In this document: positions 3,001-61,417 of the stretch, piece after piece
How the letters are laid out: every line of letters begins with the position of its first letter
Numbering within the stretch: position 1 is the stretch's first letter
DNA from: Bolinopsis microptera
Taxonomy: Eukaryota; Ctenophora; Tentaculata; Lobata; Bolinopsidae
Length of the DNA stretch: 64,000 bases
Assembly: GCF_026151205.1 (NCBI RefSeq)
Contig: NC_087083.1
Coordinates: forward strand, 5,000,460 to 5,064,459
Direction: 5' to 3'
Translations under genes and position numbers: made by a program
The notes under the pieces: generated by a model
Told to the model about the DNA's origin: nothing
The model's database searches: none
What the model saw: only the letters and a program-made list of their open reading frames with translations

Positions 3001-6000
3001 TGTCATAGAATAGAGATAATATATAAGCGTTTTATCGAGTTAGGCGATGGTCAGGGGGGCGGGGGAACCCCCCCCCCCCATGGTGAGATTTTAAGCTGTA
3101 AACTGATTCACTGTTGGCACATGTCCATTTCTAATACAATTAACGTTGATAAAAATAACCTCATGTGTTTGAGCCGATTGGCTCGGTCACAACACGTACT
3201 CAAATTACATGTGCTTTAGATTTTAACTTACAATTCACTTTAACATGTCAGTTCATCCTAAACAATGGTTTACATTTTTTACGTCGAATTTAACTAAGAT
3301 CACGCACAAGATGTCATCCTGACATTCCCTTCAAATTGAACTAATATCATACCACTAACAAGATATTATCCCTCTCAGAGTGAACTAACAAGATATTACC
3401 CCTCTCAGAATGAACTAATATCATACCACTAACAAGATATTACCCCTCTCAGAGTGAACTAACAAGATATTATCCCTCTCAGAGTGAACTAATATCATAC
3501 CACTAACAAGATATTATCCCTCTCAGAGTGAACTAATATCATACCACTAACAAGATATTACCCCTCTCAGAGTGAACTAATATCATACCACTAACAAGAT
3601 ATTACCCCTCTCAGAATGAACTAATATCATAGGGGGGGGGGGGGGGGGCCAATGGCATAAATGGAGAAAATGGAGAATTACTCATAGGTTTTTCCATTTT
3701 CTCCATAGAAATAGTCTCCATTTTATGCCATTTTATGCCATTTTATGCCATTGAAAACCTGAAAAATTTAGAATTTCGAGAAAAATTATTTTAAAAAAAG
3801 ATATTTTCGGCCAATAATGAACAGGGTATCATGAAACATGGAGAAAAGTGGTTTTCAGAAAAACTTTGAAAAATTTTGACTTAGAAAATTTTCGGTCCAA
3901 GTCATTTTCGATACGTACCTCCCGTATCGAGAGCTCCCGATTCCGAGCTCTTGTTGCAAAGGGGAGGCCTGCCTTCCGAGATCGCATTATCTCGAGTCCA
4001 AAATTGTGTATCGAGGGGAAGGTGTGGACTTCGAAAAAAATATTTTCGGCAAATAATGAACAGAGTAGCATGAAACGTGGAGAAAAGCGGTTTTCAGAAA
4101 AATTTTAACCGAAAAAATATTTTCGGCTTATAATGAACAAGGTAGCATAAAACGTGGAGAAAAGTGTTTTTCAGAAAAACTTTGAAAAATGTTGACTTAG
4201 AAATTTACCCCTCGGTACACAATTTTGGACTCGAGGCTTCCTCCTGGTAATACGTTCTCGGAAGGCAGACCTCACCTTTGCAACACGAGCTCGGAATCGG
4301 GAGCTCTCGATACGAGAGGTACGTATCGAGAATGACTCGGGCCGGAAATTTTCTAAGTCAAAATTTTTCAAGGTTTTTCTAAAAACCACTTTTCTCCACG
4401 TTTCATGCTACCCTCTTCATTATTAGCCGGAAATATTTTTTTAGTTTTTCGGTTTATCGAAGTCTGCACCTACCCCTCGAGGCTTCCCCTGGTAATGCGA
4501 TCTCGGAAGGCAGGCCTCCCCTTTGCAGTGCGAGCTTGTTTCGACTTTCGAGGATGTAGGTCTCACTTCTCAGTGCCTATTACTCTCCCCTATTACTCAC
4601 TCCTGCTGTAGCCTGTAGAAATAACTTGACACTAGGCTTGAGTAATTATGAGTTTGCCTGAAGTGTGCCTCTACTAACCTAGTGTAAGCATCTAGTAGCC
4701 TACTATGAGCTTTCATAAGCTTGTTACGCCCCTAGTTAACGTAAATAAACATGTTAGGATGTCCAGTTTAGGTGTTAAATGGTGTTAAAGATGAAATTTC
4801 GAAGACAAAATTCATGGCATAAAATGGAGAAAATGGAGAATTACTCATGGGTTTTTCCATTTTCTCCATGGAAAAAGTCTCCATTTTATGCCATTTTATG
4901 CCATTTTATGCCATTGGCCCCCCCCCCCCAATATCATACCACTAACAAGATATTACTCCTCTCAGAGTGAACTAACAAGATATTACCCCTCTCAGAGTGA
5001 ACTAACAAGATATTACCCCTCTCAGAGTGAACTAATATCATACCACTAACAAGATATTACCCCTCTCAGAGTGAACTAATATCATACCACTAACAAGATA
5101 TTACCCCTCTCAGAGTGAACTAACAAGATATTATCCCTCTCAGAGTGAACTAATATCATACCACTAACAAGATATTATCCCTCTCAGAGTGAACTAATAT
5201 CATACCACTAACAAGATATTACCCCTCTCAGAGTGAACTAATATCATACCACTAACAAGATATTACCCCTCTCAGAGTGAACTAACAAGATATTACCCCT
5301 CTCAGAGTGAACTAATATCATACCACTAACAAGATATTACCCCTCTCAGAGTGAACTAACAAGATATTACCCCTCTCATAGTGAACTAACAAGATATTAC
5401 CCCTCTCAGAGTGAACTAACAAGATATTACCCCTCTCAGAGTGAACTAATATCATACCACTAACAAGATATTACCCCTCTCAGAGTGAACTAACAAGATA
5501 TTACCCCTCTCATAGTGAACTAACAAGATATTACCCCTCTCAGAGTGAACTAACAAGATATTACCCCTCTCAGAGTGAACTAATATCATACCACTAACAA
5601 GATATTACCCCTCTCAGAGTGAACTAACAAGATATTACCCCTCTCAGAGTGAACTAACAAGATATTACCCCTCTCAGAGTGAACTAATATCATACCACTA
5701 ACAAGATATTACCCCTCTCAGAGTGAACTAATATCATACCACTAACAAGATATAACCCCTCTCAGAGTGAACTAACAAGATATTATCCCTCTCAGAGTGA
5801 ACTAATATCATACCACTAACAAGATATTATCCCTCTCAGAGTGAACTAATATCATACCACTAACAAGATATTACCCCTCTCAGAGTGAACTAATATCATA
5901 CCACTAACAAGATATTACCCCTCTCAGAGTGAACTAACAAGATATTACCCCTCTCAGAGTGAACTAATATCATACCACTAACAAGATATTACCCCTCTCA

Positions 6001-9000
6001 GAGTGAACTAACAAGATATTACCCCTCTCATAGTGAACTAACAAGATATTACCCCTCTCAGAGTGAACTAACAAGATATTACCCCTCTCAGAGTGAACTA
6101 ATATCATACCACTAACAAGATATTACCCCTCTCAGAGTGAACTAATATCATACCACTAACAAGATATTACCCCTCTCAGAGTGAACTAACAAGATATTAC
6201 CCCTCTCAGAGTGAATTAACAAGATATTACCCCTCTCATAGTGAACTAACAAGATATTACCCCTCTCAGAGTGAACTAACAAGATATTACCCCTCTCAGA
6301 GTGAATTAACAAGATATTACCCCTCTCATAGTGAACTAACAAGATATTACCCCTCTCAGAGTGAACTAACAAGATATTACCCCTCTCAGAGTGAACTAAT
6401 ATCGTATCAAGAGCAGATCAGGAGTTTGTCACTAAGCAAAGCGTCCTTGAGCGCGGAAATTACTAACGTCTCCAAGAAGTGCGGTGAACTGGAACAGAAG
6501 ATCGTGGACCTGCCTTTGATTAAGAAGGAGAATAAGGTGGGTATTTATTATATTATTTATTTAATTGTTTGTTAAATTGTTTGTCAAATAATTTTTTTAG
6601 AAACACACCATACAAACTGTACATAAAAATTAAGGTAACGGTACTGAAGATATTATGACACTATTCCTCCCGTTGTTATAAAGACTTTGTTTTGTTGTTA
6701 AACAATTCCCTTCCACAAATATAAATTTTTTAGTAAAAAACACGCAGAGTCACTCTAAGTCTAAAAGAAAATGAACCCTTCGCACGACTTTGGATCGGAT
6801 TAAATTTTGGCTCAAGAATTGGATCATGAAAAAGTACATTTAAAAAAGTACATTCACATACCCTTATATACCAAACCAATTTGGTGTAAAAATACAACAT
6901 TTACCACATTTTGGTTATATCGTACATTGTGCTAACATTTATACCACTAAGTTTTATTATTACTGTAAATTATATAATTGTGAGATGTACTGAGTAACAC
7001 ACACAACAACAGTAGTGGTTCGATGTGGTGAAAGTTACTGATACCATTATGGCTGAAGTGTATATTATTATACATATTTATTTATTATTATGTATATTTT
7101 ATGTAGGCTATTTGCATACTTTTGTTCGTGTTGGACGGAGAAATGATACGACCTTGTAATCACAAAAAATCGAAAAAGTATCCATTGAAATTTAAAATCA
7201 ATAATGATTCTAAAATGTATAATCATTGCTTACACTGAAACTCATAACATTATAACTGATACGATCTCTCTAAAGTGAACCTCAGTTCCGCTTACAGGCA
7301 GGCTGCAGATGTGGAGAGGGTCATCGCCATTTCTCATTTATTTTTGGAGGTTCAATTTTCGCTATTATATTGAAGGCTGGTAAAATAGCAATAATCATCA
7401 ATTAATTTCGATGATTTGACCATTCACTAAAACTTGTCCATCGATAAATGGTAGTGAAGGCGATTTTTTTGCTATCATAGCCATTTATTTAATTCTTAAA
7501 CTTTTTAGCCATTTCACCAAGCGAAAATTACATTCTCCATTTCTTTTTTTTAAAGTGGCGATGATTGTTCCAGACATATAGCACTAATCACAAAACAGTA
7601 CAGAGAAATCATCATAAATTTAACAATTCTTCGTGAGCATTAATATTCTTATTTAATAAGCACACTTTGCTTACACCCAAAAGATAACACAGTGTGAATA
7701 TACGTGAGCAGTAACTGAGTAACTTGGAATTTTTCATATACACAAACTACAATGAGTCCATGATGCGGTTTTTTCTTCCAAAGGAATCTGTTCCGGTAAT
7801 TATAATCTTTGGAATGATAAACTGCACCGGATTTGATGTTTGAGCAGTTGCGGTGATAATGTTCATTTCCATTCCTTCGCCTGGTATATCTTGTGTGATA
7901 TCTGAAGCTAACCCTAGAACTGCAAGTAGATTACTCAGCCTCAATTGGAGGCTAATGAAGAGTTGTTTTGTTTTGGTAAATAATTGTTTTTTGTCCCCGT
8001 TTATAAGCGGATTTATGACTGAGTTGATGGGTAGTATGATTAACGAGAATATGGGATATGTTGAGGTTGCATCGATCTGTCCAAGGGAATGTAATCCACA
8101 AACAAAAATAAACGGTACCCAGCATATGAAATCTGTTAATATAATCATCGCAATTTTTCTTTGGTCCTTTTTCCTTTCTCGAACCAACTGCATTTGATCG
8201 ATTTCTTCCAGTTCCACAGTTTCAGCCGATGTTTTTGTTTTGACAATGATGAGTCCATAGCAAAAGCAAATTGTTAAGAAGCAGAACAAGTTGACTCCTA
8301 AGCAAAGCCACACAAAGGCTTTTTGTGGATCATTGTTCTGGACGAAGTACTTGAAAAGACAAACTCCGTCTGTACCATAAAAATGGATTTTCTTTCGGTC
8401 AAGAGTCCCTTTGTTGTAATCACTTGTGAACATTTCGTCAATCAGTGAGTTTATGCGTTGCCATGAGGTATCATCTTGTAACCTTAAATTCCCATAGAAA
8501 CTTTTTATAACACCGATGTGAGTTTTTTTATCCACATACGGTAAAAACAATTTTACATTAGGGTTGTATGTCATTCCGTTAACAAACAAATCTTCAAAAG
8601 AGGATAGAAGAGGCGCAATAGCTATCATAAGGCTTGGAACAGTAACAATCATAATCAAACCAGCGATTTTCGATAAAAGGTTTTCTAGCATACTAAACTT
8701 TAAATTAAAAACTTCGAACAAACGGAACATGCTGAATGAAGTCATCGAAAATAGGGATATTTGTGCGCCAAATGTACTTACCACTCCTAGCGATGAACAC
8801 ATGGTGCTTGATAACCAGACATATTGCTGCTTGCAGTATCCTTCTCCATAAATGATGGAATCCATAATTGCAATGCAAAGCAGGTAAATACCTGTGAGAA
8901 GATCTCCGATATTGATGAGCAGCGCAAATGTTGTATTGATCACAGTGTTGTTTACTCCAATGTTTTTGGATAATGATATAAAATTGCTGATCATACGCGT

Positions 9001-12000
9001 AATATTTAGTATGACTGCAACAACCCCAATGATCCAACTGACTACTTTAAATAAAATCCCTGAAATTATTTGCCTACCACAGTCTTCACCACATTCATCC
9101 GAGTAGTCAGAGCATTGAACAATGCCGTTGCACATTTGTGTGCTGGGAATGAAGTCTCTGGTCAAATTACAAGAAAAAACGTTAGAACAGTTTGTTTCAT
9201 CGGAAAGGTCTCCACAATCGTCCACTAGATTACAAACTTTGTCATGAGTTATACAATGTTCGTTTTCACAACGAAATAGTTCCTTTTGTAAATACCTATT
9301 TGTAACACTTATAAAAGCTAAACTGGTCCCATCACGTGTGACAGATATAACATTATCTTTAAAATTTTCACCTCCACAGGCTTTCGTGAGTTTGGCGACT
9401 TTTAATGGACAAACCAGAGAGTGTAGACATCTTTTTTTGCAGGTCATATAAACGTATTGCTCACCATAAAAGCTTTTGCATTCATGTTTTTTCTCTGGTA
9501 GAAAGATTGACAACGCACTTACTCCTAAAATGCCGGTGTCTGGGATTTGGAAGGTTTCATGAGAGCACGATGAGATGTGCTGACCCATACTAAGAGCAAT
9601 TCCAGGGAGACAGTATGACACAAATTTTGTCGGGAAATTCTTAATGTCCTTCCATAGGCGTTTATGATAATACGCTTTACTTATAACATTTTTGGATGGT
9701 CTTGTTTTTTTACAAGCAGCTTCTTCCACTGAGCAGGTGTTTAAGCCATTACACATACTCTCCAGTTTCACAAATCCAGTGGTCTCTGGCCCACACTTGA
9801 ATACATTTTTACAAAAATGACCTTCTGGCAAGTATCGGAACGAAGTGCCAACTATGCAGGTCGGCCAGAGGTTCAGTTCATCTTCACCTCCGGTACAATC
9901 CTGAAATCCATCACTAAGCCACGATATGGGCAGACTCAGAGGCATATCATGACGATATCTGCGGGCACACGTTCTTTCAGTCATTTCATGACATTCCTCC
10001 ATATTTTCATCACTATGATCAACACAATCAAAATTTCCATCACAAATTTGATGTTTATGAACCTTGCATCGGAAAGAAGGTTCTTTGCACAGTACATCGA
10101 AATGGTCATCACACAAAGAGTTTACCAGAGGTAAATCCATACAAATGATTGTAGGAGACAAAGTTGTCATAAATCCGCTTATAGGACATGTCAAGACAGC
10201 TCGCTTTGCGTCCGTGCAATTCATTTGGTCAAAATAATTATTGCATAAAGGGATGACATTATCATCGTAGAACATAATATGTGATATATTTATGACAGAA
10301 TTTATGACAGAATATATGGGGTATTTACCTAAAGCTGCACATCTTGTAAAATTGTGAATTGGTATCGAAAGGAAATCGCTAATATGCTGATATGCTGATA
10401 TGCTGGAAATACATATCTGGGTATCAGATTTCAAATCCAAGTCAAAACAATTCCTCTCGTCTTCCCCACCATCACAATCCCACACTGAATCACAAATTTC
10501 AATCGGTCTCACATATGTTTGTGTTTTTCCTTTTTTGCAAATAATTCCATACAGAAAACCGTTGCAAAATGCTTCGTCGAAACAATCTAGAGAATCGCAG
10601 TGTAGGTCGCACAAAGAAATGATTATTTCAGAAACTTTTGGGCAAAAGGCTTTCATATCACAAGAAACAATTGATTGAAACAGTTTGTCATTTCGCGTTT
10701 TATCGCAAACCCAACTGTAATCCATAATTTCATGCCATTTTTTACCTCTGAAACGTACATTGGATGTATTGCACATAGTTGCATCGTAAATACCATCCAG
10801 GTCCTTCAGTTTATACTTTACTTCTTCATTAATCGAATGCAAAAGAAGCTGGTAGTTGAAATGCTTATCATTTGGGCATATTTTAGAAACATAAACTTGG
10901 TATAAGTTCTCATCCTCGTATAGAGATGGTTTGGAGATAAATGCAAGTACATAAATGACTGTATAGTATGTTTCTGACCATACACATTTCTGAACGTTAA
11001 AAAAATGATTATAAACACATACGATTTGAACTGTTGCACCGTGATGTAATTCCTTGCACTGTCCTGAGATAAAATGTTTGTTCTAAATTTATGTTGGAGA
11101 CTTGGAGAGGAAAGACTAGCTTGAACAATTCACGATAATAATCGAAACCCTAATTCACTGCAAGCCCTGATTTACTGCAAACCCAAATTTGCCGTGGCTG
11201 TTAGCTTTCTTTCAAACTCCACGGTAAATTGGGGCTTTAATGTATCATCATCTACAAAAGTAAGTAATACTGCAACATCCAAACTTCTAAGGCATCAGAG
11301 TCCAAGATCCTAAATATCGTTCACATACTACGTAATCACGTTTTGGAAAATGTTAACCCCCCTCCCCGTAGTCAATTTTACACACAACTAGGCTATTGTG
11401 TCAAAATTACACTAGCGTAATCACTTGGAAACCCCTTTCCCCCTCGGCTAATTACGTAATATGTGAACGACTACTATGCGAGCACGATGCGTCCTAAAAT
11501 TGAATTATGCGAGAAAAATGCTGACGGAAGTTGTCCAATCTTACCTGGTTTAGGGTTGCACGAAAGAATGATATAGGGTAGTAATTCTCCAGAAGTAACT
11601 CTTATGTTGTATGAACAATCATCGAACTTCATCACTTCGTCCTCACAATGGAGATCAGATATAAGAAGGTAGGGTGTGTAGTAACCAATTTCTGCATAAC
11701 TATACAATTTCTCTTCATCCATATAGTCCACCCAGTCTACAGAAGTTTCAAACCCCAGTTCTTGACAGATAAGGTTGGCTGCTTTGTTGGAAAAATTTTC
11801 TGCAACAACTAAACCAGCCTGAGGTTGTAAATTGTCAAGAGCTTTTCAAAGTAAGCATCCAATTTAATGTTATTTGTTTGTTACTAGTTAGAGTTTTGAA
11901 CATGGTTCCTCATTTATATTTAAGTAAGTTCAGCATATCACTTACAATAAAAACTGTAAAAACTTTCATAAAACTAGAAAATTACCCCAAAACTGGCAGA

Positions 12001-14355
12001 AGCAGCTTCAAGAATTCCGGAGGTTGATTTAGCAGGCACGTTTGGTCCAGTCATCAGTCGAAATTGTAGCCTTTCTGTGGGTTTTCAACGTTACGTGTTT
12101 ATTTTAAGGGTCATGTAATTTTGCTCGTAACTTTGAAAGGTATTATAGAATTTCTTTAATCGGTATGAGAAAACTGTGCGGACATAGACGAGCTTTTAAA
12201 GTTTAATGACAAGAAGAGGGTTAATCACGTGTGGTTAATCACGTTTGGTTAATCAGTAATCACGTGTGGGTAATCACGTGTGGTTAATCACGTGTGGTTA
12301 ATCACGTGTGGTTAATCACGTGTGGTTAATCACGTGTGGTTAATCACGTGTGGTTAATTACATGTGGTAAATCACGCGTGGTCAATCACGCGTGGGTAAA
12401 CTTGTGCCACTTAAGATTACCCACTCCCATTGGATTAGGAATTCAAGCTCTAAACATAATCATAAAAATATTAAAATCAGCCTAGAATTCATCTACCAAA
12501 CAAACTAACCTTGGGTGATAGAAACTCCGGTTTGATTTGATGCTGTGACATAGCCGATACAAGAGTAAATCAGTGCTAGTAGCAAACCACCGTGCATAGT
12601 TCAAATTCCTGTAGAATGGGAAAAGCTGGTTTAGGAAGTAAATGTATGTATATTTTCTCAGAGAAAGTTCAATTTGATAAATTAACAGGTCAATAAAGCA
12701 ATAAATTTGGTTCACAGTAAATTTAATTCACAATAAATTTGGTTACAAAAATTTTGGTTGCCATAATTTTAGTCACAAACTTCGCACATTTTTAGTCTAC
12801 AACAGTTTTAGTCACATTTTTCGACTTTTCGAGACTATTTTTCCTTGCATTTATTTGATTTTTTTCATTATTTAGCTATTGTTTCCCGATTTTGTACATA
12901 AAGTCATACTTTCAAGTTTAACGTCAGAATATTAAATGGTGTATCATAACATATAGCAGCGGTTTTAAAGGATAAATTCTAGAAGGGGTCATTTCACATA
13001 ATTACTTCAATGAGTTAAACTAGATGCAGATACTGCCTGATGGGAAAAGGATGTAAGAGAATGTGAAAGCATTAAAGCAGTGGATTACACGTGTAGGATT
13101 TGCTTAAAATTTAATAGAATTAAAGTAAAGAAGATTAAATATGAGCTTGCTTTTACCTTGATTCAACTATAACATGAACGTGCAAAAAATTCAGAATCAA
13201 GTAGAGCAAGGAAACAACGAGTATTATATCTAAGTAAGTAGTAAGTACCGTAGGTGGATTGTGGAGTTTGCAGATTTGCACTGACCGATCCTTCACTACT
13301 ATATAACATGGGTTATATTTGAATACCTTCTAATGATATCCATTGTCCACAGCCCGTTAAATATAGATAACTCTTTGTAGGTGACACTACATGGTCAGGA
13401 TTTTGTAATGAGATTTTGAAGTACAAAACAAACTCTTTAAGAGAGGACAATGTTATGAACGTCAATTCTTACAACTGAATTTAAGTACTGCTCACTAAAA
13501 TAGTAGGAGCTTGTATTTAAGATGAGTTTACTAATGAGGCTATCTCAGTCAATCATCGTAATAACATGATTGTAATATTACACTATAGATATTTAGTATG
13601 GTATGAACGGCACGCTATAAAATACCAATCTTGCCATCTAGTGCATATTTTAAGTAAAAATATTTAAAATAACGTATATTTTTGACGAGATATTAAAGGG
13701 CCACAAAAATTATATCCGTCATTTAAATGAAGAAAAAGCCGTACCTTTAATTTAAGAATTTAGTACCTTACTCCGTTTTACCGCGCCCTGATTTACAGTG
13801 AATCCTATTTACCGCGGCCATTTACTTCCTCAAATTAATGCTGAACATACTTAACATACTTATACTTATTCACATACTTATGTGAACAATCAAAACTCCG
13901 ATTTACTGCGAATTCAGATTAACAGCGGCCTTTCCCCAATACCACACCTTACAATAACACCATAACACTCTACCATAATACCCTATAAAAACACCTTACA
14001 ATATCACCCCAACACCCTACAATAACACCCCAACACCCTACAATAACACCCCAACACCCTACAATAACACCTTACAATAACACTCTACAATAACACCATA
14101 ACACCGTACAATAACACCCCAATATCCTACAATATCACCTTACAATATCACCCTAACACCTTACAATAACACCCTACAATAACACCTTACAATAACACCT
14201 CAATGTCCTAGGAGCTACAAACACGTTACGACACGTTACTACAAATGTACGGCGAGAAAGCAGAAGAAGTCCATGAACTTCAGCTCGATCTTACAGACGT
14301 ACGTGAAGCGTACAAAGCCCAGATCGAGCAACTTCTCGCTAAAGTTATCCGATAG
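1..14355 (+). CDS. TMF1: TMF1-like golgin (TATA element modulatory factor), 5' partial, four exons
   Basis: Exons: <1-2115, 2341-2825, 6390-6536, 14212-14355 (stop TAG). Exon 1 is open to the left edge, so the start lies outside; about 962 residues are in the window against roughly 1090 in vertebrate TMF1. TMF1 is a Golgi coiled-coil protein that binds Rab6. Order seen: a long acidic, Ser/Thr-rich region (about residues 1-340), then heptad-rich coiled coil. Family landmarks include PLLRQIQLFKESL near the end of exon 1, SQLKQSQ at the end of exon 2, and LLQMYGEKAEE followed by an LDLTDVREAYKAQIEQLL tail in exon 4, where vertebrate TMF1 has its conserved C-terminal TMF_TATA_bd block. Splice phases fit: 1 for intron 1 (G|AG), 0 for the next two. 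All donors are GT and all acceptors AG. The exon 3 acceptor sits at the edge of a minisatellite made of copies of itself. A complete opposite-strand gene lies in the last intron. Identity is strong; the exact exon 3 acceptor is the least certain junction. Confidence 0.9.
2826..3338. other. Start of TMF1 intron 2, no gene seen
   Basis: The intron opens with a GTAAGG donor. At 2906-2945 there is a short stretch resembling the tail of the CACGTG/CCAAT dispersed repeat found at 14515. A run of G then C bases lies at 3055-3080. No coding potential is visible. Confidence 0.5.
3339..6389 (+). repeat. Composite minisatellite of 3' splice-site copies (30-bp and 44-bp units)
   Basis: About 50 units, split by a transposon at 3632-4929. 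Two unit lengths alternate. Both contain the core ACTAAC-AAGATATTA-CCCCTCTCAG followed by AGTGAACTAA; the 44-bp form adds ATATCATACC. The array runs without a break into TMF1 exon 3, whose acceptor at 6388-6389 (CCCCTCTCAG) and first codons AGTGAACTAATATC are the last unit. Each unit therefore carries a branch-point-like CTAAC, a pyrimidine tract, an AG and a start-of-exon copy. Units differ by a few substitutions (ATCCC for ACCCC, CATAGT for CAGAGT), and short higher-order blocks repeat. Confidence 0.95.
3632..4929. mobile_element. Non-autonomous TIR element with 9-bp target duplication, inside the minisatellite
   Basis: The element starts with a long G run followed by GGCCAATGGCATAAA and ends with CCATTGGCC followed by a C run, so the termini are inverted repeats of about 100 bp built from ATTTTATGCC and GGAGAAAATGGAG motifs. 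It is flanked by AATATCATA at 3623-3631 and 4930-4938, a 9-bp target duplication that also rejoins the minisatellite unit. The interior (about 3785-4400) is partly palindromic: the stretch around 3840-4030 recurs inverted at 4160-4395. It has no transposase. Nine-base duplications are typical of MULE elements; the family is inferred. Confidence 0.8.
6537..7746. other. TMF1 intron, AT-rich, no feature recognised
   Basis: This lies between the exon 3 donor (GTGGGT at 6537) and the stop of the nested receptor gene. It must contain that gene's 3' UTR on the minus strand, but I could not place a poly(A) signal with confidence. Confidence 0.5.
7747..12597 (-). CDS. SRCR-LDLa-rhodopsin-type 7TM receptor, complete, nested in a TMF1 intron
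   Basis: Exons in coding order: 12597-12510, 12074-11986, 11818-11545, 11063-7747; 3768 nt, 1255 residues, junction phases 1, 0, 1 all agree. Exon 1 encodes a signal peptide (MHGGLLLALIYSCIGYVTA). Residues about 31-150 form one SRCR-like domain (LMTGP start, LICQELGFET core, LHCEDEVMKFDDC, closing ILSC). Residues 151-310 are cysteine-bearing and unassigned. LDLa repeats lie near 318-355 (CDSVWDCDGGEDERNC), 468-508 (CDGNFDCVDHSDEN), a degenerate one near 530-550, and two adjacent at about 746-809. Seven helices follow from about 825: TM1 has N in AVILNIT, TM2 has LLINIGDLL, TM3 ends FSMFRLFEVF in place of E/DRY, and TM7 has LPINSVINPLIN. The last two motifs recall LGR/RXFP and molluscan GRL101 receptors, but no leucine-rich repeats are seen. 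A surface receptor with a large ligand-binding ectodomain is inferred; the ligand is unknown. Confidence 0.88.
12216..12400. repeat. 14-bp tandem repeat carrying CACGTG
   Basis: About a dozen copies of GGTTAATCACGTGT, degrading to CACGCG at the right end. It lies in the first intron of the receptor gene. Every good copy holds a palindromic CACGTG (E-box) core. Confidence 0.9.
12598..13920. other. 5' flank of the nested receptor gene, no gene seen
   Basis: AT-rich DNA upstream of the receptor's start codon (on the minus strand) and still within the TMF1 intron. Its promoter should be here, but no TATA or initiator could be assigned. Imperfect 'TTTGGTTACAAA'-like runs occur at 12712-12800. Confidence 0.4.
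13930..14205. repeat. ACACCCTACAATA minisatellite next to the last TMF1 exon
   Basis: Degenerate tandem copies of a 10-14 base unit (CACCCTACAATAA, CACCTTACAATAA, CACCCCAA) fill the end of the intron up to the CCTAG acceptor at 14211. Confidence 0.85.
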
Positions 14356-15762: not shown

Positions 15763-18700
15763 CTAGAAAATGTGGTCCTTCTCGAATTGTTTGCCCTCCC
15801 AGTCGTCCATGCCTCCGTCGATGAATTTGGTCCAAAGTGCCTTTTCGTCCGGTTTGTTCATGTCCATTTTAGTACAATTGAAGTTTTCGATATCAATTGT
15901 CCAGTTTGTATCTTCCTGTGAATAAATATTTATCAGAATAGTGTTTATATTAGATTCTTGGAGGATTTTATTGATCGATTAATACAAGAATAAAACTGAG
16001 AGACAGTTAATAGTAATATCATCATACATCATCATGCAGAATCTGCTAAGAATCTCCAACGCTAATTATTCGGACTGATCAGTAATTACCCTAATTAAGT
16101 AATTACTCTAACACATTGCCCAGAATATTTAAGGACAACTTTCTGAAGTGCTCCAGGATTTGTCAACAAATTTAAGTGGTAGCGTCTTTCTGATTCAGAT
16201 CCGTTAAAAAAACGACCCACTCACATAGAAAAAGTTGTCTCCCCCTCGTCCAAGCCAGATTCCAGCAAGACGCTGATCTCCTTCGTCTCCAAAAATGTAC
16301 ATGAGACCGAACGCATACTTCTTCATAGTTTCCAGTCTCTGGAACATTCCTGTGGTATGGATGGTTAGTAATAACACCCTACACATTAACACCCTGACCC
16401 TAACCCTAACACCCTACACATTAACACCCTGACGACCCCGACCCTAACCCTAACACCCTACACATTAAAACCTAACACCTTACACATTAAAACCTAACAC
16501 CTTACACATTAACATCCAACTTGAATTTAGTTATAAAATTTGTAGTCATTTGATTATGATATGAGATAATATAGAGGAATTGAAACGCAAGGAATGCAAA
16601 CGATCTCCGAATATTTTCAATTTTCCCGTCAAGCCACTAGACCCACGACTTAGAACAGAATACATGAACCTACATTTTCTCCCCAACCGTAATACTGAAC
16701 TAAACTATAAAATATAATTTTAATCTGGAAAATCATTTGACATTTTCAAGTTATCAATTAAAAAATTAATCATAATTATAACGTACCTTTGACGAGGTTG
16801 TTGGTTTTTGTCGTCTTGACAAGCTCACTCTGGTACTTATACTCGACCTTCCACACTGACCATTCTCCATCGACGAAAGTGTCGTCAAAGTACTTATGGA
16901 TAACCTCGCTAGGATCGTTCCAGTAATGTCTGAGAAAGTGAGATTAGATAAAGGTAATATCTAACAGCTCTCGTTGGGTGGATTGAACATGGTCCTGACG
17001 ATGAATAATCAGAGGTGGAATGTTTCATAACAATAATATTAAATAAATAAAGTCACATTTTATACAGCAATTTATCGGTATTATCATTTGAGTTAGCCAT
17101 ATAAGAAAGTATAGCTGACGCTGTGAAGGCTGCAGCAAATCATATCAGGAGCACCCCTGCAGATTTCGTCGATTTCAGGTGCCGTCGGCACCATAAAAAT
17201 TAAAAGCAAACATAAATTTTTCCCCCTAAAATCGAATGCTTTCTGCGCAAAAAATTGACCTCAACAGAAAAAATTAAACGTGGCTTCAAATCCAAATTTG
17301 AACTAGAGATTTTTCACTTCCTCTCGATAAACTTAATTTTCAACCCAAAATAAAGTTTCAAAGGGGTAAATTACTCAGGTCAGGATTGTAGGCAATGATT
17401 ATGCCAAACCATACATTTTTGTAAATTCATTAAACTTTCAATTTAGCCAAAACACCCTATTTCGCAACATTTTTCCGGGGGGGGGGCTGCGCCCCCCTAG
17501 CCCCCGCCAATGTGGTCCGCCCCTTACCTGGACCCCGCTGGGGGCCGCGCCCCCAGACCCCTGCCACAGCTTGCAGCTTCGCTCGCCGACAGCCCCCCTC
17601 CCCCCCCCAAAGAAAAATCCTGGCTACGTGCCTGAGCAAAATATAGATTAAGGGCTTTTCAGATGATTTGGCTCCTCAACAGATACCGACGTACATAACG
17701 GTCAATATGTAGTTTAGGTTTACCTGGCCCGTAGGTTACGAATGTTATGTGCCCGAGGAGGAAAAAAAAAGCAAACTTAAGAAAATTTCTCGGGAACTTA
17801 AAAGTTCACCTCAAAACGAAATCTGCACCTATGATCAGGAGACTGTACACATATTAGATAACTAACAGTCTCGTGATCTTGAGTGTAGAAAGTAGGAATG
17901 TCAGTGTAGAAAGTAGGAATGTCAGTGTAGAAAGTAGGAATGTTAGTGTAGAAAGTAGGAATGTCAGTGTAGAAAGTAGGAATGTTAGTGTAGAAAGTAG
18001 GAATGTCAGTGTAGAAAGTAGGAATGTCAGTGGTTAGACGTACCTTTTGAAGTCATCCATGTTGAGCTTAGGTGCTGGTAGAGAGGAGAATGGTGCTGAT
18101 CTCTCTTTCTTTGGGGCTGGTGCAGCTTCCTGTAGCACAGATTTACCGTTAAGTTTAGTTTGGTATGAATTGTTAGCAAGGAATTAAAGTTTGGTATGAA
18201 TTGTTAGCAAGGAATTAAAGTTTGGTATGAATTGTTAGCAAGGAATTAAAGTTTGGTTTGAATTGTTTAAAATTTAGGTAATCACTAATCAGCCGTATAT
18301 GAAGAGTATAACAAGCGTTAGAATTTCCGAAGTACGGAAAGAGGGGACGGCTGATAAGAACTTAAATTATTAGCTATTTCAGGTTTAATAATTATAATCA
18401 GCCTTAGGAGGAAGGGGTTCGGAAATGCTAACGCTTGTGTAATTTCTTCACAACATGTATGTGTTAAAACAATTATAGAGTGGAATGTTGGGTCGAAAGT
18501 GGCCAAAATCTTTTGCTACATAAGGTTGTATTGTGCGAATGTAAATTGATATTTAATTGGTGCAGGGAATGCTTCTATATGGGTTTGTAGAAAAAATATT
18601 ATCAAGTTAATAATATTAATTAATTAATAATATTAACAAACCTCTTTCTTGGGAGCTTCTTTCTTTGCTGCTTCCTTCTTAGGGGCGGCGTTCTTCTGCT

Positions 18701-21700: not shown

Positions 21701-24700
21701 CCGTACCTCACTCTACCGTCGAGAACTGGAAGCAACTTCGTGGCTAGGATCCGAATGAGTGGACATAAGCTTAACGTAGAAACAGGAAGATATGGGAGAC
21801 GAACTGGTAGTCGTCATTATAGAATCTGTGAATTCTGCAGCGAGAAGCCCGTGATGGAGCTCCTCCTTCCAGGTGTGGACCCGATCATAGAAGATGAAGA
21901 ACACTTCCTTAGAACATGTCCCAGGTACCATTCCAATAGGACTAACATGAAGGAGCCCACAAAGTCCTTGCTATTTCATGACATGAAGAGCCTCTTTCTC
22001 CCGGAACACATAGTGGAATTCACCTATTAGGGTTGAATTCCTGCTAGGGTTTGCGTGCTTTTCTCGCTCTTTTTGGTAGCTTCTATCTTGATCGATTTGC
22101 ACTCGCCTCTGGCTTTAGAGTGACACCACGACATTTTGGTAATGGTTTTCTCTCCCATTTGGATTACGGAATTTGGATTTATTTTAGCAACGCCGATCTA
22201 ACGTTATTATACTGTACTCTATATTTGTAAACCTTGTAAACCTTGTAAACCTTGATTACCCAATCAATTGTGCTAACGTGATAAACGAATTGCTCGATAA
22301 CTTCGTAATTTTAAATCTATTTCGCACCCTCTTTTAAGATTATATTAAATGAACTATTGCAATATGTTACAACGGAGTCTCTAACATGTTCACAAACACG
22401 AGTATAAGCAATTCAATGTTGATTGGGTGTGGCCCCCAAAAATCTTTTCAAATTTTGGTGACGGAATCCTCGAAAAAGTAGGTACAGTATGCCATCTGCA
22501 AAGCAACAACTCTCAAATATAAAACACGGCGGTGGTATAAGACCCAACGTATGGGTACTGACTTTTGGCCCCCCCTGTATGATTCATCGAACAATTTATG
22601 AATTGCTTTAGAAATGATATTTGACACATGATCCCATTAAAAGATGAAAAAGCTTCTCAAATATTGGGTTTCATTTTTGTAAAAAAGGAGATGAAAAAAT
22701 CCCCAAATATCATGATTTAATATGGGGTACGAAATTAGGCGGTTTTCGGAAAAAATTCCTATATTTTTGTTCCCAAATCATTAAGGTCACCGGAATAATG
22801 TCGAACATAAATAATAAATATGTCTCGTAAGGTAATGGAGATGAGTCCTACGAGCAATACTTTCTTTGTTTTACAAAACTAAACTTATCAAAAGTACGCA
22901 AAATTTATTTATACTTCACATGTACTAATTACACCACTACAAATCTATTACAATTATTGAGTTTTATGTAACGTTATAATATGTAAACGTTTTAGGCGGA
23001 TAAAAGCCAGTCCAAACCCAGGCTCCATATCATGAAGGTCTCGTTTTAATTTGTATTGAAAAGCAATAATATAAAACAGACGTCCCAACCAACACCTATT
23101 GCACTTAAGCCACATTCCCCAAATTCCCCACTACCTTAAATCAAATTCCCGACATTCCCCACTACCTTAAACCACATTCCCCAAATTCCCGCTAGGTCTA
23201 CAAATTTAAACGTGTACGTGTGAAGGTACATGTCATCAACTGGTTATCTGATACGAGGGAAACGAGTGTTATCTTAAATATCCGCGTATTTCACGTCCAA
23301 TAGCAGCACTTTCTTGATATCAAAGTTCAAGTGAGTCAAACTCAAATGATTTTGAATTCATGTGCTTCGAATCAGTTTTAGACATCCTTTTCTTGAATCT
23401 ATGATGCGTAAGCTATGGTATAAATTTCAAACGATCAATTGCAATTTGGGATCGTTTCAAAAATATGCATATTCATGTAGAAATATGAATGAAGAAATAT
23501 GAACATACCGAAAGAGGCGATGGCCATGGTATCGTTCAGACATCCTGCAGATGACTCGAATGCTGGAACCTGGAATAAAAAGAATGGTAAGTATTTCTGG
23601 AATTTATCGTATTTCTATCAAGCAAAAGATCGCGAAATTGTTTTGAAGTTAATAAAATGAGTTATTTGATTTGTCCCGACATAATAGTTAACGAATAGCG
23701 TTTCTTCATGAGCTGGGCAAGAAGCCAATAAACTTACAATAAAAGATTGAACAATTTTAATATACAATGGACTGCTTGATGATACGATTATATGCAGGAT
23801 GTTTAAAGGGTAAGAGCTAGTTAGATTTAAAATATTTGAAATTATACTAAAATAGAAAATATTGAAACTTTTGTGCATGATCATGTGTGATGTGAAATTG
23901 AAACTAACAGCTGTGTCCCGTGGGCTGTATCATTATAAATGTGGATTCAGGTGGGGAGGTGAGGCATATTTTTTGTCACGTGACAGCAATTTACCAATCA
24001 GCATCCACTACCGACCAATCAATTACTGCCACGTGCCAAAAAATTAGGCCTTCCCTCCCACCAGAATCGATATCTATAGTTGTCCCAATGAGAAAGAGAG
24101 GAGATCTTGACGGAAAAACTTTATAAGTGACCATTTAGAGTATTTATACAACTAAGACTATTGCTGCTTCAGTCATAGTTGCAGTCTTCAGCTCATAATA
24201 GATTTAACATTCCTTTCGTTTCAGATATTTGTGTGTAAAATGAGATTAAGATGACTGATTAGCGTTATTTGGAGCTTTCTTTAGTATATCCTGCTACTGT
24301 ACGTAATTTAATAAGAATGTAAAGATTACCATGTCATTAAATACAGAGTCAATTTACAAAGACTAAAAACAAACTAAACTAAATGGCTCAGAATTACAAA
24401 TCATGAACTGTTTGCATTTAATCTACGTAAATTACTAACTCCTTTAATTCCAATGTTTTACAAACGCCAGTCCAAAATCCCAATTTTGAGAGGGATAGAA
24501 ATTAGAATGCCCCAGATACTCCATTATTAGAGATGGTGTAACCTTCACAGCACAGTCAGACAAACTGTCACGTGTCGCACAAACTGTCACGTGATAATTG
24601 CACAGGAATAAAAAACCTTAACCTGGTAACCCTGGTGCCTGCAGAAGAGCAATTCTAACGTTAAATGCAAATCCACATTTTTTGTGAGCAAACCCAAGAG

Positions 24701-26490
24701 ATGAGGCGTTGCCGAGTAGCCAAAGTATGGTGGGAATCACCACACATGTGTAGCAGCGACAAGAGGTCCCATGGTCGCTTGATCTAGATTGGGCTCAACT
24801 GTCCGGCAGCCCTTAGTGGGACGGAAAATTAAAAAAAGAAACACCTACCATCAACTTAATTAAATATTTCATTCCGCAGGCCACCGTACGTTACCAGGGG
24901 ACTTCTTTATTGTGAAAGCAGTTCTGTCTTTATGTCTGTACTCATATTTTCTACAATCCAACAGAATGTGAAGGTCAGGGATTGGAAGGAGAGGAAAATT
25001 TCTAAACATTATGTTAAGTAGATAATTCTGAGATCTATCATCTATGCCACAGGAGCTGCACTTATTACTGGGACTTAACTATTACAAGGAAGGAGGGTGC
25101 AGTTCATGGTAAATGTTGGGAATCTCACAGGCAGTGGCGTAACTTAGGGCCCCGCAGACCCCGCTGTGCGGGGGGGGGGGGGGGGGGGGGGGTGCCGTAC
25201 TAGGGGGGCGCAATTTTCCTGAATTTTAGGCCCTTTCACTGAAAAAACGCCTTATTTGTGTATTTTCCTGTCCAATTTACCGTTCGGTGGACGCGAAAAA
25301 ATATTTGGGTTACCTTTTTTGCTTCAGGGGGGGCGCAATTAGCTGTAGGGGGGGGGGGGGGGGGGGGGGGCGAGAAAAAAAGTACCCGACCTTTTTTTTT
25401 TTCTTTTTTTTTTACGGACACAACAAATTTTAGGGGGGGGGGGCACATTTCGTCACTGAGCCGGGGGGCGCCAACAGGCAAAGTTACGCCACTGCTCACA
25501 GGATCTGTAATATCTATTGAACACCAATATATTACTGCTGCAAGGTACCCAACATTTGAAGGGAAATTCGATGATATTACAGGCAATCACTGACAAAGCT
25601 TGGCAGTTATTTTTCTTTAACAGTTATGGATAACATTCGACAAATATATGTTTAACTATCAACCCATGAGATACAGCTAAAACTATTTTAGAGATCATAT
25701 TTGGGTTTTTTGGCTTTATCACAAAAACGTTTAAACATCCGTTTAAAAACTACAAGGGAGGAACAAAGTCACGCCCTAGTTGTGATGTTCAACGATCTAA
25801 TATGTCAAATCCGTTCATGTGGTCAGTGTTTTTCTAGTGCTACTTTCAATTGGTATTTTCAGTTGTATCCCAGATTCGAGCCTTGCTATGAGTTTCGTTA
25901 CCATGAAAGCGGAGGCAAAACAAGAAACTCTTGTCTGTTTGAATGATAAGAAATGATTATGAGCAATGTTGTGTAGGACAGAGTCAAGTTATTAATTCCA
26001 GTTGTCAAATAATCATGAAAGGTGCTTTCAGGGTGCTGATGTTCTTTGTTATTGTGCTATTATATGTTTATAGGTTTTCAAGAAAGTTACAACATCGTCT
26101 TTTATTAAAACTAACCTGTCCGAATGGGAATTTAGCTGTGAAGGCTGGAGATTTGTTGGTAACACCAAACTCGAAGTCAGACGCTAGTTTTACGTCAGAG
26201 CCGCCGTATTGAGCACTGATCTGGATCAGTTGAGCTCTGGAGCTGTTGGGATAGCAGTAGAGTGTCTGAAAACAGAACGAGGGATGAGTTTCATCACAAC
26301 AAAAGTTAAGTTACTGAGGAAAACTAAGAAATCAAGCAATTGAGCTACGCATACGTGACTCAATGAGTCTCAACGATACACTTCAAACTCATCAGAAACT
26401 AGACTAACAGTTTAACACAAGCATGACACCACAAAATCTGCTAAAATCATCTAAAAAACTTACCCCATCGACACCGTTCTTTGCAGGCAT
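15763..26490 (-). CDS. EEF1G: Eukaryotic translation elongation factor 1 gamma (eEF1Bγ), complete, 11 coding exons
   Basis: Exons in coding order: 26490-26464, 26265-26116, 23569-23509, 20571-20429, 20111-19968, 19124-18995, 18730-18642, 18129-18044, 16929-16787, 16349-16225, 15915-15763; 1251 nt, 416 residues (human 437). All junctions are GT-AG and phases agree. The protein anchors the eEF1B GDP-exchange complex that recharges eEF1A. Residues 10-80 form a GST N-terminal fold (TLYCYPNSSRAQLIQISAQY, then KFPFGQVPAFE). Residues about 85-215 form the GST C-terminal domain (RTYLVGESVTLADLSLAVYM, then RWFTTIMNQDEVTRVLG). A Lys/Ala/Pro-rich linker follows (residues about 220-275). The C-terminal EF1G domain has LNMDDFKRHYWND, FVDGEWSVWKVEYKY, GMFQRLETMKKYAFG, WEGKQFEK and ends DHIF. 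The usual VFES segment is replaced by CLNDTMAIASF. The start ATG at 26490 opens MPAKNGVDG before TLYCYP. Confidence 0.96.
16376..16510. repeat. Telomere-like and CACCCTACACATTAA short tandem repeat
   Basis: ACCCTAACCCTAAC occurs twice (about 16398 and 16440) among CACCCTACACATTAA units, directly upstream of an eEF1G exon acceptor. It is too short to be a telomere relic with certainty. Confidence 0.8.
17152..17833. mobile_element. hAT-like element with 8-bp target duplication in an eEF1G intron
   Basis: ATCAGGAG flanks both sides (17144-17151 and 17834-17841). The left end is CACCCCTGCAGATTTCG; the right end, reversed, is CATAGGTGCAGATTTCG. The termini are thus imperfect inverted repeats around TGCAGATTTCGT. 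Inside, 17470-17635 is a GC-rich block with CCCCCC runs ending in a TCCTGGCTACGTGCCTG-type sequence, which I take as a fragment of a second inserted element. No transposase. Confidence 0.75.
17882..18032. repeat. 21-bp tandem repeat, about 7-8 copies
   Basis: The unit is GTGTAGAAAGTAGGAATGTCA, with TTAG variants. It abuts the donor of the eEF1G exon at 18044. Confidence 0.9.
18155..18262. repeat. 31-bp tandem repeat, three copies
   Basis: The unit is TTTGGTATGAATTGTTAGCAAGGAATTAAAG, split here only in description; three nearly exact copies and a partial one lie just upstream of an eEF1G exon. Confidence 0.9.
20113..20405. repeat. AGTAA/GGTAA pentamer array
   Basis: Copies of AAAGT/AAGGT AA fill the eEF1G intron next to the exon at 20111. 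The minus strand reads as a Thr/Leu/Phe low-complexity ORF, which is a repeat artefact. Confidence 0.9.
21116..22577. mobile_element. Inner TA-target TIR element (CAGGGGGGGCCAAAAGTCAG family)
   Basis: Left end CAGGG plus a G run, then GGCCAAAAGTCAGTACCCAT and ACGTTGG; the right end is its inverted copy at 22540-22577. TA dinucleotides flank both sides (21114-21115, 22578-22579). A TA target with CAGG termini fits Tc1/mariner-type elements; this is an inference. It encloses a LINE fragment and no transposase. Confidence 0.8.
21480..22255 (+). pseudogene. 3' end of a non-LTR retrotransposon (reverse transcriptase C-terminal region)
   Basis: An ORF at 21587-22030 lacks a natural start. It contains VARIRMSGHKLNVETGRY, then ICEFCS and EDEEHFLRTCPRY: a Cys/His zinc-knuckle-like tail seen C-terminal to the reverse transcriptase in many animal LINE proteins. 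The catalytic core is absent. After the stop, a 3' UTR ends in three copies of TTGTAAACC at about 22225-22252, a tail typical of LINEs without poly(A). It lies within the two nested DNA elements. Confidence 0.75.
23977..24090. repeat. Dispersed repeat with paired CACGTG boxes and CCAAT, copy 2
   Basis: CACGTG at 23977-23982 and 24030-24035 bracket TTTACCAATCAG and CGACCAATCAA. The tail ACCAGAATCGATATCTAT parallels copy 1. Confidence 0.7.
25132..25494. mobile_element. hAT-type MITE, 363 bp, 8-bp target duplication
   Basis: CTCACAGG at 25124-25131 and 25495-25502. Termini CAGTGGCGTAACTT and AAGTTACGCCACTG are perfect inverted repeats of 14 bases. The interior is rich in G runs (25167-25192, 25349-25370, 25433-25442). 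The termini and 8-bp duplication are those of hAT elements. It sits in the eEF1G intron between the exons at 26116 and 23569. A degraded relative lies at 43061. Confidence 0.93.
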
Positions 26491-27110
26491 GACGTTAAGG
26501 TGTGTAAATTAAAGTAAAGACTGATTCTGTCTAGGCCAGCATGGAAATTTCTTATTTAGCGCTCGATTCAGAGAGGACGTATTAGCTGGTAGCGCGCGCA
26601 ATTTTCATCGATCTCTTTTGATTGTGCGCTCTTGGTTCTGTAAACAACAAAAACCAAAAATGAATAGATTATTTATTAGTATTCAACTCTGTTCCATGGG
26701 TGAATTGTTAAGAGTCCTGTTTAATTATAATAAAATAAGATTATTCTCTGATCGCACCGATACTACGGCGAGTTTTTTTTGTAAAAGTTGATGAGCGAAT
26801 CATCGATTATTTTTTTTTGGCATCGTGAATTTTACACTCATTAGGATTCACTTTTTAACTAAGATTAAGGGAAATGGGGACGTGCACTTATTTCATGGTA
26901 TTTTCAACGAGTGTACCAAATGTAATAATTGGAGAAAGATTAAATGAAGAATTGGCGGCAAGGGTGACGCGCATGTCATTTAAAGAAACGTCGCGCGCGT
27001 ACGTTCCTTCGCGCCAAAATCAACTTTCTACATAGAACTCTTCTTCGCGCCAGCGCTAAAGTCACAGCTAAGCTCATTAGACACCGAACAAGTGGATTAT
27101 TTCAACTTTC
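26491..27110 (-). promoter_or_regulatory. Probable eEF1G 5' UTR and promoter region, CpG-richer than surroundings
   Basis: Upstream of the eEF1G start codon. GCGCGC islets at 26592 and 26992 and GCGCCA near 27010 and 27047 stand out in AT-rich DNA. The transcription start cannot be fixed and no TATA box was assigned. Confidence 0.4.
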
Positions 27111-47840: not shown

Positions 47841-48527
47841 GGCCAAGTGTTTAGACTTGATTGTGAGGTGAACAGTGATTGTGTGGATGAAAGGAGATGT
47901 TTGAAATAATATTTCACATTAATTTGTCTATTTCGATTACATTAGTCCAAATACCATGGCAAAGTATGCTGGTTAAATTCTTGGACCGATGCCAGGACTC
48001 ACCGTCTTTATTTTGGAAGGAGACATCCACTCCTCCAGGTTTCTGATGGTGTGGCCTATTTCATGGTCTGTGAAACGAATATCTGTGAAGTATAGTTCTT
48101 ATTCTGGCTTCCTCATATCCTTAACCACTGCTTCCGCATCTAGTCAGTCCTGAGGATATTACTGGATAATGATCAAGTTTAGGAATAATTATTACTGTTC
48201 TGTAATCTGTTCACTGATCACTATTTTTATGATATAAATTAAAGTTGAATCAAGATCTTAGATGGTTGGTCTATGCATTCCTCTCTTATAATTGTATATT
48301 AATGTTAACTATGATCTCGCATTTATCAATTATCAGTATCACTAAGGTTACTGAAAAGGGGATAAGCACCTCAGGCTATCCCAACAATTGCGGGAGAGTA
48401 TTCAGTACCCCATCATTATATCGCTAATTTCTTCGGTATTGCGTGATTTTCAATCAGGTGCACTGAATAGTGAATATCGACTTTATCTTTTTCAGTTTTT
48501 GAGCAATCATCCTGAAACTTTGCTCAC

Positions 48528-49196
48528 GATTCAACAACTTTTGCTTTAGCTCCCGAACCAATCTCAACTGAAAATACATACATTACACAGATCTTAATAA
48601 TTTCGGGTACATAGATTAAATGTTACAGACTTTTCTGATCATAGCGGAAATGTGACACAGATTTGAATAATTTCGGGACAAAAATGAAATGTAACAAACC
48701 TTCTGATCATGGTGGAAAATGGAAATGTGAGAGACACAATAGTATACAGTACGCTGCAAGTTCTGTGAATAGGGATTATATTAGGGTTTCTCACGATTCA
48801 ACAACTTTTGCTTTAGCTCCCGAACCAATCTCAACTGAAAATACATACATTACACAGATCTTAATAATTTCGGTACATAGATTAAATGTTACAGACTTTT
48901 CTGATCATAGCGGAAATGTGACACAGATTTGAATAATTTCGGGACAAAAATGAAATGTAACAAACCTTCTGATCATGGTGGAAAATGGAAATGTGAGAGA
49001 CACGATAGTATACAGTACGCTGCAAGTTCTGTGAATAGGGATTATATTAGGGTTTCTCACGATTCAACAACTTTTGCTTTAGCTCCCGAACCAATCTCAA
49101 CTGAAAATACATACATTACACAGATCTTAATAATTTCGGTACATAGATTAAATGTTACAGACTTTTCTGATCATAGTGGAAATGTCAGAGACACCT
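48528..49196. repeat. 267-bp direct tandem duplication, 2.5 copies
   Basis: Copies at 48528-48794, 48795-49060 and 49061-about 49196 differ by only a few bases. Each full copy contains a spurious about 90-residue ORF starting at the same place (48663, 48929). Confidence 0.95.
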
Positions 49197-55483: not shown

Positions 55484-55945
55484 GACTATGTTAAAAACGA
55501 AATTTGACGAAACCTGATCGATTTAAAAGCATTTAAATATAAAGTAAACAATAACATCAACGATTAATACATTGCTACTTATTTCGTTATTTCAGCCTTG
55601 GAACAATTTTTATAAGTAGTAGAATTGTAAATTGCAATCGATCGAGAGACAGTTCATGATGAGCAAACGAAATATTTAGCAAAGACAGCTTCATAATTGA
55701 TTTTTTACACCTGAAAATAAATTGCTTGCGGAGTGTCTATATGAGAATTTCGCACTCTGTGTCGAATTCGCTCAATTTGATATTGCGCGCTGATATATGA
55801 TAATCGAAATCGCTAATATCGCCAGCACAGGCCTGAGGCCCTGTGCAAAATAAAATTTAAAATCATTTTTAATCATTTTTATGTAAACTTTTTCAAATAA
55901 ACTTCACCACAAATTTACTCAGCACCCAAATTCATTTTATAGTTA
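55484..55945. other. Upstream flank of the 1352-residue ORF
   Basis: AT-rich with several TCGA palindromes; no promoter element assigned. Confidence 0.4.
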
Positions 55946-60440: not shown

Positions 60441-61417
60441 CTGTCCGGGTCAATAAAGCAGTCAAGCATCATGTATGTTATGTTGAGCATTCTCAACCAA
60501 CAAATGTGGGAACTCCCACGAAAGACCAAAACAGATCTGAAGAGACACTTAACAACATTGGAAAAATAGACTTCAATTTGTTTATATAATTTATAAAGCG
60601 TATATTATTGCCCACGTTAAGGGGCCTGTTAATAATTTGTTAAATTATTAGCTATTTTAGATTTAATAATAATAAAATTCATGTGAACGGGTTATATTAT
60701 TTCCACATTTTGTTAAATAAATTAACAATCAACATGAGACTAATTCTTTATATATATATATAAAGAATTAGTCTCCCCTAATATATATATTAGGGGTTGT
60801 TTACAACAAATTTTAACCGGTATTCGGTAACCCTCACCCCTTCGTAATCAGTTGTACACATAGCTATTTTTCAAATATTATGCACATACTATCACAATGA
60901 CCCTATATAACAAGAATTTCGTCGCGGTAAGTATCTTTTATAACACATTAGATAGTGACAATACCGAACCTGCTCGATAATGTAAACAAAAGTATACTTG
61001 TAAGCCTCATTTCACCCTCTCAAAAGGTGGTTAGCCTCATTCTCATCTCGAATATTTAAAGCTTAGATCTCGATCAAGTATAATCACTATGGATTATACT
61101 TGCAACTTGGATATCTTGGACGTAACATGAGAAAGTTCTTTTTTGAAAGTGATGTGGCTAATTCGTTAGCCTAATGACCAGGGTCTGCTATGCGTGTAAT
61201 TAATTAACACATAACTGGCATCAAGCGCGAAAATTTACCCCTTCTATATATATAATTATAGGGGAGTGGTCTATAGTGAAACAAATTTTTTTAGTGAAAC
61301 AAATTAAAAATTTTATCCTTTATTTTACAATCATAATATAATAATATTTATAAGCCTCCGTTTTGAAAGTTTTAAATTTTAATATTATATTCCCATTTCT
61401 ATTTAAAATTCAATTTA
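60441..61417. other. Intergenic, palindromes but no gene
   Basis: Includes the two abutting perfect palindromes at 60736-60796 and AT-rich DNA; a CCCCT...AGGGG AT-rich hairpin also at 61237-61265. Confidence 0.6.
60736..60796. repeat. Two adjoining perfect palindromes (40 and 22 bp)
   Basis: GAGACTAATTCTTTATATAT and its exact reverse complement occupy 60736-60775; CCCCTAATATA and its reverse complement occupy 60775-60796. Confidence 0.95.

Follow-up and report, generated by a model that had tools for sequence, protein, structure and literature searches.

A minisatellite that repeats the intron 4/exon 5 junction of TMF1 in the ctenophore Bolinopsis microptera

How does a gene remain readable when one of its splice junctions has been copied dozens of times next to the exon that it serves? 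This question is raised by the TMF1 gene of Bolinopsis microptera, where a unit parse finds 48 near-identical acceptor units at 3354-6389 of the window, directly upstream of exon 5. The window is the whole stretch of 64,000 nucleotides that was analysed (C12:5000460-5064459, contig NC_087083.1, within a 264.65-Mb genome), and positions refer to it unless stated otherwise. We think it probable that the array is a mirage minisatellite, that is, a tandem repeat drawn from the intron 4/exon 5 junction itself, and that splicing tolerates it.

The exon model was built by eye from splice signals and reading frames and contains six exons. The gene had been named TMF1 in a preliminary description of this DNA, and the Pfam matches agree: TMF_DNA_bd (PF12329) was found on the long exon 3 with an E-value of 1.1e-11, and TMF_TATA_bd (PF12325) spans exons 4-6 with an E-value of 7.4e-25 on the joined stretch. 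The predicted protein starts some 1.1 kb before the window and reads MSWFKASLSQYAQDALSQAQ there, which resembles the human protein. The exon entered from the array had been called exon 3, and it is exon 5 of six in the present model:

upstream of the window start, + strand: TMF1 exons 1 and 2
from the upstream flank to 2114, + strand: TMF1 exon 3 (long)
2341-2825, + strand: TMF1 exon 4, in-frame part 2343-2825; an open frame that ends CAG/gtaagg, where the PF12325 match starts before continuing into exon 5
6390-6536, + strand: TMF1 exon 5, 49 codons, begins SELISYQ and is entered from the last acceptor (6389/6390)
14212-14355, + strand: TMF1 exon 6 (last, with the stop codon), PF12325 positions 73-115, 53.4 bits

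Tandem Repeats Finder (TRF) reports the array in two parts, at 3337-3631 and 4930-6399. The preliminary description had placed one continuous array at 3339..6430; the array itself was recovered, whereas its continuity was not, since an overlooked transposon-like insertion divides it. The unit parse, the frame computation and the reading of the sequence around the insertion gave the following parts:

3354-3631, + strand: 5' part of the array, units 1-7, with unit 7 split (unit parse)
4941-6389, + strand: 3' part of the array, holding units 8-48 and recurring larger blocks of them (unit parse)
6155-6364, + strand: seven consecutive 30-bp units, five with the canonical AG and two with CATAG; of all upstream units only these read in frame and open into exon 5 (frame computation)
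3632-4929, no strand assigned: non-autonomous DNA-transposon-like insertion of about 1.3 kb with G/C-run ends, which splits unit 7
3623-3631 (left) and 4930-4938 (right), no strand assigned: 9-bp target-site duplication AATATCATA (read from the sequence)

A target duplication of 9 bp would fit a Mutator-like element. Used as a query, 3634-4929 has at least 22 near-full-length places in the genome, its own included, among the best 40 scored of 1892 candidates.

A count of about 50 acceptor copies had been given earlier, which is a fair estimate. The units upstream of the last one number 47 (26 of 30 bp, 20 of 44 bp and one split by the insertion), and the last unit carries the acceptor at 6389/6390 that borders exon 5. 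The 44-bp unit corresponds to the final 24 intron nucleotides and the first 20 exon nucleotides of this junction with two differences, both of which are synonymous in the exon frame (TCA/TCG and TAC/TAT). Because the unit is composed of 24 nt of intron and 20 nt of exon, it must have been copied from the splice junction. The 30-bp unit is the 44-bp unit minus 14 bp located between two ACTAA words. A canonical CAG was observed in 43 of the 48 units, which upholds the earlier view of dozens of near-identical acceptors, and CATAG in the remaining five; in CATAG units an in-frame TGA would come directly after the displaced TAG. The branch-point-like motif CTAAC, said to be present in every unit, was found in 46 and is replaced by TTAAC in two (2/48), and its A lies 20 nt from the G of the AG. 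An 11-unit block, BBaCCBaBata in the unit string, is found both at unit 10 and at unit 28 of the window array.

A search of the genome with the unit pattern (35 nt, up to 3 mismatches) returned 74 places, 48 in the window and 26 at a second TMF1 locus, while the reversed pattern used as a control gave zero matches in the genome. A chance origin of the array is therefore excluded. Selection on the acceptor bases was also considered and is unsupported, given that the acceptor G varies in 5 of 48 units here and in 3 of 26 at the second locus; it is the second most variable position of the window array, whose units are not independent, and shows no sign of protection.

The second locus is a partial TMF1 duplicate located on the same contig at a distance of 185 kb, the similar stretches lying at about C12:4992683-5011510 and 5171133-5194435. 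It contains exons 1 to 5 and lacks exon 6. Its array has 26 units, 23 of them with the canonical AG, and runs uninterrupted, without the insertion, so that one assembly holds arrays of 48 and 26 units. Both unit strings start with cBaCCB and finish with ata, and their interiors differ; the last acceptor is unchanged. The compared part of exon 3 is 99.53% identical between the loci, with three amino-acid differences and no stop, and that of exon 5 (6410-6536) is 100% identical. A reverse-strand receptor gene with LDL-receptor class A and 7tm_1 domains is nested in the last TMF1 intron at 7747-11082. The stretch of this gene that was compared is 97.07% identical; indels separate the two copies of the gene, and not all of these are multiples of three.

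What, then, would each acceptor yield? The protein predicted from the last acceptor aligns without gaps to TMF_TATA_bd positions 13-115 (87.7 bits), exon 4 running into exon 5 ungapped, which is in keeping with the earlier proposal that the final unit works as the acceptor of a genuine exon. With one array unit inserted before exon 5 the score is 76.7 bits, 11 bits lower, and with seven units it is 79.5 bits with a match to 25-115 only, the exon-4 part being lost. The product of the last acceptor is thus the best TMF_TATA_bd fit among the three versions compared. As the preliminary description had recognised, the 30-bp unit is open and reads SELTRYYPSQ, and the 44-bp unit meets a TAA at codon 8. 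Its implied balance of in-frame insertions and premature stops was not seen, as 37 of the 42 canonical upstream acceptors in the window reach a stop (at codon 8 for 20 of them, 18 for 11, 28 for two, 38 for three and 6 for one) and only five stay open. At the second locus a stop is reached from 20 of the 22 canonical upstream acceptors and two stay open. Counting all upstream units, 7 of 47 in the window are in frame and open (five with the canonical AG), all of them at the 3' end of the array, and 3 of 25 at the second locus (two with the canonical AG).

These observations are consistent with an origin by tandem duplication of a 44-bp segment across the intron 4/exon 5 junction, comprising 24 nt of intron (branch point, pyrimidines and AG) and 20 nt of exon. 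Loss of 14 bp between the two ACTAA words would have produced the 30-bp type, and unequal exchange would then have spread both types, with the insertion present in one copy of the locus; we infer the order of these duplication steps. The protein would be unchanged since the last unit retains the junction. Splicing most likely uses the last acceptor, because it is the only one that leads into the real exon and its donor, and the upstream acceptors would be used rarely, giving mostly early stops and presumably RNA decay. Several features speak for a mirage of this kind: the tandem unit crosses the intron/exon boundary and takes in exon sequence, splice signals are present in many units at both loci, the array length is unstable between the two loci (alleles or paralogues), and the edge unit types are common to both copies with homogenised, differing interiors. 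Competition between duplicated 3' splice sites has been studied in classic work, and the 48 acceptors, whose cores are almost alike and whose positions differ, form a natural competition test in which what decides besides the site itself can be examined.

Some points weigh against this explanation. Use of the last acceptor is a prediction from the DNA sequence, and the upstream units carry nearly identical core signals, so that local sequence by itself does not favour the last one; that the last unit wins in so long an array would follow from exon-definition reasoning. The seven 30-bp units beside the exon are mildly unexpected under a random order of units (P ~0.01, a test chosen post hoc), and a run of at least seven 30-bp units anywhere in the array has a P of 0.22. 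An ancestral, since decayed acceptor was sought at the 5' edge of the array and could not be demonstrated, its alignment being matched in score by 2373 of 5000 shuffled sequences and by 132 of 470 windows of intron sequence.

The closest known systems, compared here through excerpts of the cited papers, are the lancelet "mirage" minisatellites, which were described in the globin genes BflGb6 and BflGb9, in Adh3 and in troponin C, with repeats of PGBD5 likened to them (PMC3087553, PMC3902484). Like the TMF1 array, they consist of tandem units across an intron/exon boundary, many with splice signals, their haplotypes differ in repeat number and the edges of the clusters are unhomogenised; regular splicing is reported to be undisturbed (PMC3087553, PMC3902484). 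They differ in scale: BflGb6 has units of 150-160 bp, 6 and 3 in number, TMF1 has units of 30/44 bp, 48 and 26 in number, and the Adh3 units measure 10-72 bp according to citing papers, whereas the TMF1 units fall into two frame classes. The excerpts apply the name mirage only to lancelet repeats, and among the open-licence papers listed by our literature search none showed a mirage in a ctenophore.

Other parallels in these excerpts are more partial. A 25-bp variable number tandem repeat (VNTR) in human ABCA7 supplies the exon 18 donor with its first two bases and has about 12 to 427 units; occasional retention of a single unit results in an early stop, and VNTR length correlates inversely with expression (PMC5954066). 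It resembles the TMF1 array in starting at a splice site and in the early stop that follows one-unit retention, and is unlike it in lying on the donor side, where it is described as intronic and adjoining exon 18. The human CBS insertion c.844_845ins68 duplicates the intron 7/exon 8 junction and is spliced at the more distal copy, although the source words the sites as donors, and the 31-bp CBS VNTR c.1444_1467+7(16_21) by its name covers the exon end and seven intron bases (PMC2630376); unlike TMF1, the former has one extra copy and the latter is on the donor side. Human UBC shares a tandem array of splice sites, but these are dual-specific AGGT sites between ubiquitin monomers (PMC10809524). 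A dual-specific array of the UBC type was rejected for TMF1, where the array outside the insertion contains no AGGT. Variable internal repeats at exon-intron boundaries account for 27 intron modifications in human segmental duplications (PMC2812944), and a minisatellite of C. elegans shows enrichment close to multiple alternative splicing decisions (PMC4039745). A repeat that copies a junction is hence of a known but rarely reported kind, and what TMF1 contributes is its unit count, the division into two frame classes and a ctenophore host. It would appear that, in animals only distantly related to each other, a splice junction can be multiplied dozens of times and the gene still keep an intact reading frame.

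Could the array instead act on TMF1? Upstream acceptors might be used more often as copies accumulate, with the stop-bearing products degraded, so that array length would tune TMF1 output. Stops from 37 of the 42 canonical upstream acceptors, the difference of 48 versus 26 units between the loci and the ABCA7 precedent would fit such tuning. The precedents point both ways, because ABCA7 VNTR length correlates inversely with expression and lancelet mirages are reported to leave splicing undisturbed (PMC3087553, PMC3902484); moreover, the effect of ABCA7 VNTR length on splicing is exon 19 skipping, and unit retention was unaffected by VNTR size (PMC5954066). We regard this proposal as unlikely and assign a low probability to any effect of array length on TMF1 output. 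Its extended form, where the diversion of pre-mRNA by up to 42 extra canonical acceptors scales with their count and the in-frame block of 30-bp units is retained as a buffer, appears more doubtful still; if it were true, a slipped choice within the block next to the exon would still yield TMF1 protein. The same in-frame units (7 of 47 here, 3 of 25 at the second locus) could also vary protein length by adding one to seven ten-residue repeats of the SELTRYYPSQ type to the coiled coil. This is very unlikely, as a single unit already costs 11 bits and interrupts the ungapped TMF_TATA_bd match, and each unit adds a proline and a length of ten residues that does not fit a multiple of the heptad.

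Splice sites derived from transposons are a known phenomenon, and a transposon-like element is present in the array, so that a satellite or mobile element might have landed at the junction and donated the acceptor. An imported repeat of this sort would be extremely improbable, since the genome-wide pattern search places the unit nowhere else in the assembly than the two TMF1 loci, which excludes a dispersed-repeat origin, and the inserted element is missing from the uninterrupted second array. The array length or the second locus could also be an artefact of assembly, with a second haplotype placed in line, as the 99.53% identity in exon 3 and the position of both loci on one contig would allow. 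We hold this to be quite improbable, and a partial duplication is the likelier explanation of the second locus. The two arrays have different unit orders, and only short dispersed matches were seen outside the shared stretch in the sequence examined; no second full copy of 24000-27000 (3 kb) was found among the best 40 scored of 1175 candidates. Exon 6, which the second copy lacks, has a single genomic place above the cut-off for its half of the domain, and no N bases occur in the window or in the surveyed flank and duplicate loci L003-L007. The existence of the array does not depend on this question.

How common, finally, are arrays at exon edges in this genome? We hand-picked 32 kinase exon 5' ends from 136 matches, taking partial-domain matches with an intron likely nearby, and none of the 32 has an acceptor array. 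For the first 16 of these loci the analysis also covered the donor side, where arrays were compared with the exon sequence by eye, and three of them, together with a second TMF1 minisatellite, are listed here:

kinase locus L076, about 1179-1363 of the reverse complement: donor-side array, about 7 nt into the intron (TRF)
kinase locus L080, from 1167: donor-side array, about 9 nt into the intron (TRF)
kinase locus L075, from 1259: donor-side array, about 16 nt into the intron (TRF)
window 13944-14199, + strand: second, unrelated TMF1 minisatellite with ACACCCTACAAT-type units without AG, which stops 12 nt before exon 6 (TRF)

The three donors were placed by eye. A further kinase locus, L087, has an array 9 nt past the domain match, the reference there being the match end rather than a donor. 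Because three donor-side loci and L087 were found among 16, arrays near exon ends are not rare, and those close to donors are not rare in the kinase sample. The AG-free stretch around 13944-14199 measures 284 nt and is the longest on the + strand of the window. Two of the five TMF1 acceptors (exons 2 to 6) thus have an array compared with 0 of 32 kinase acceptors, a suggestive difference in a comparison chosen post hoc. An array resembling that at 13944-14199 was also observed at 16372-16514.

Elsewhere in the window, a reverse-strand open frame of 1365 codons at 51425-55522 has no Pfam match at E 0.001. Two open frames, at 58219-59820 and 61376-62736, were recognised by eye as similar to reverse transcriptases of the long interspersed nuclear element (LINE) type, and a 266-bp unit is present in 2.5 nearly identical copies at 48523-49185.
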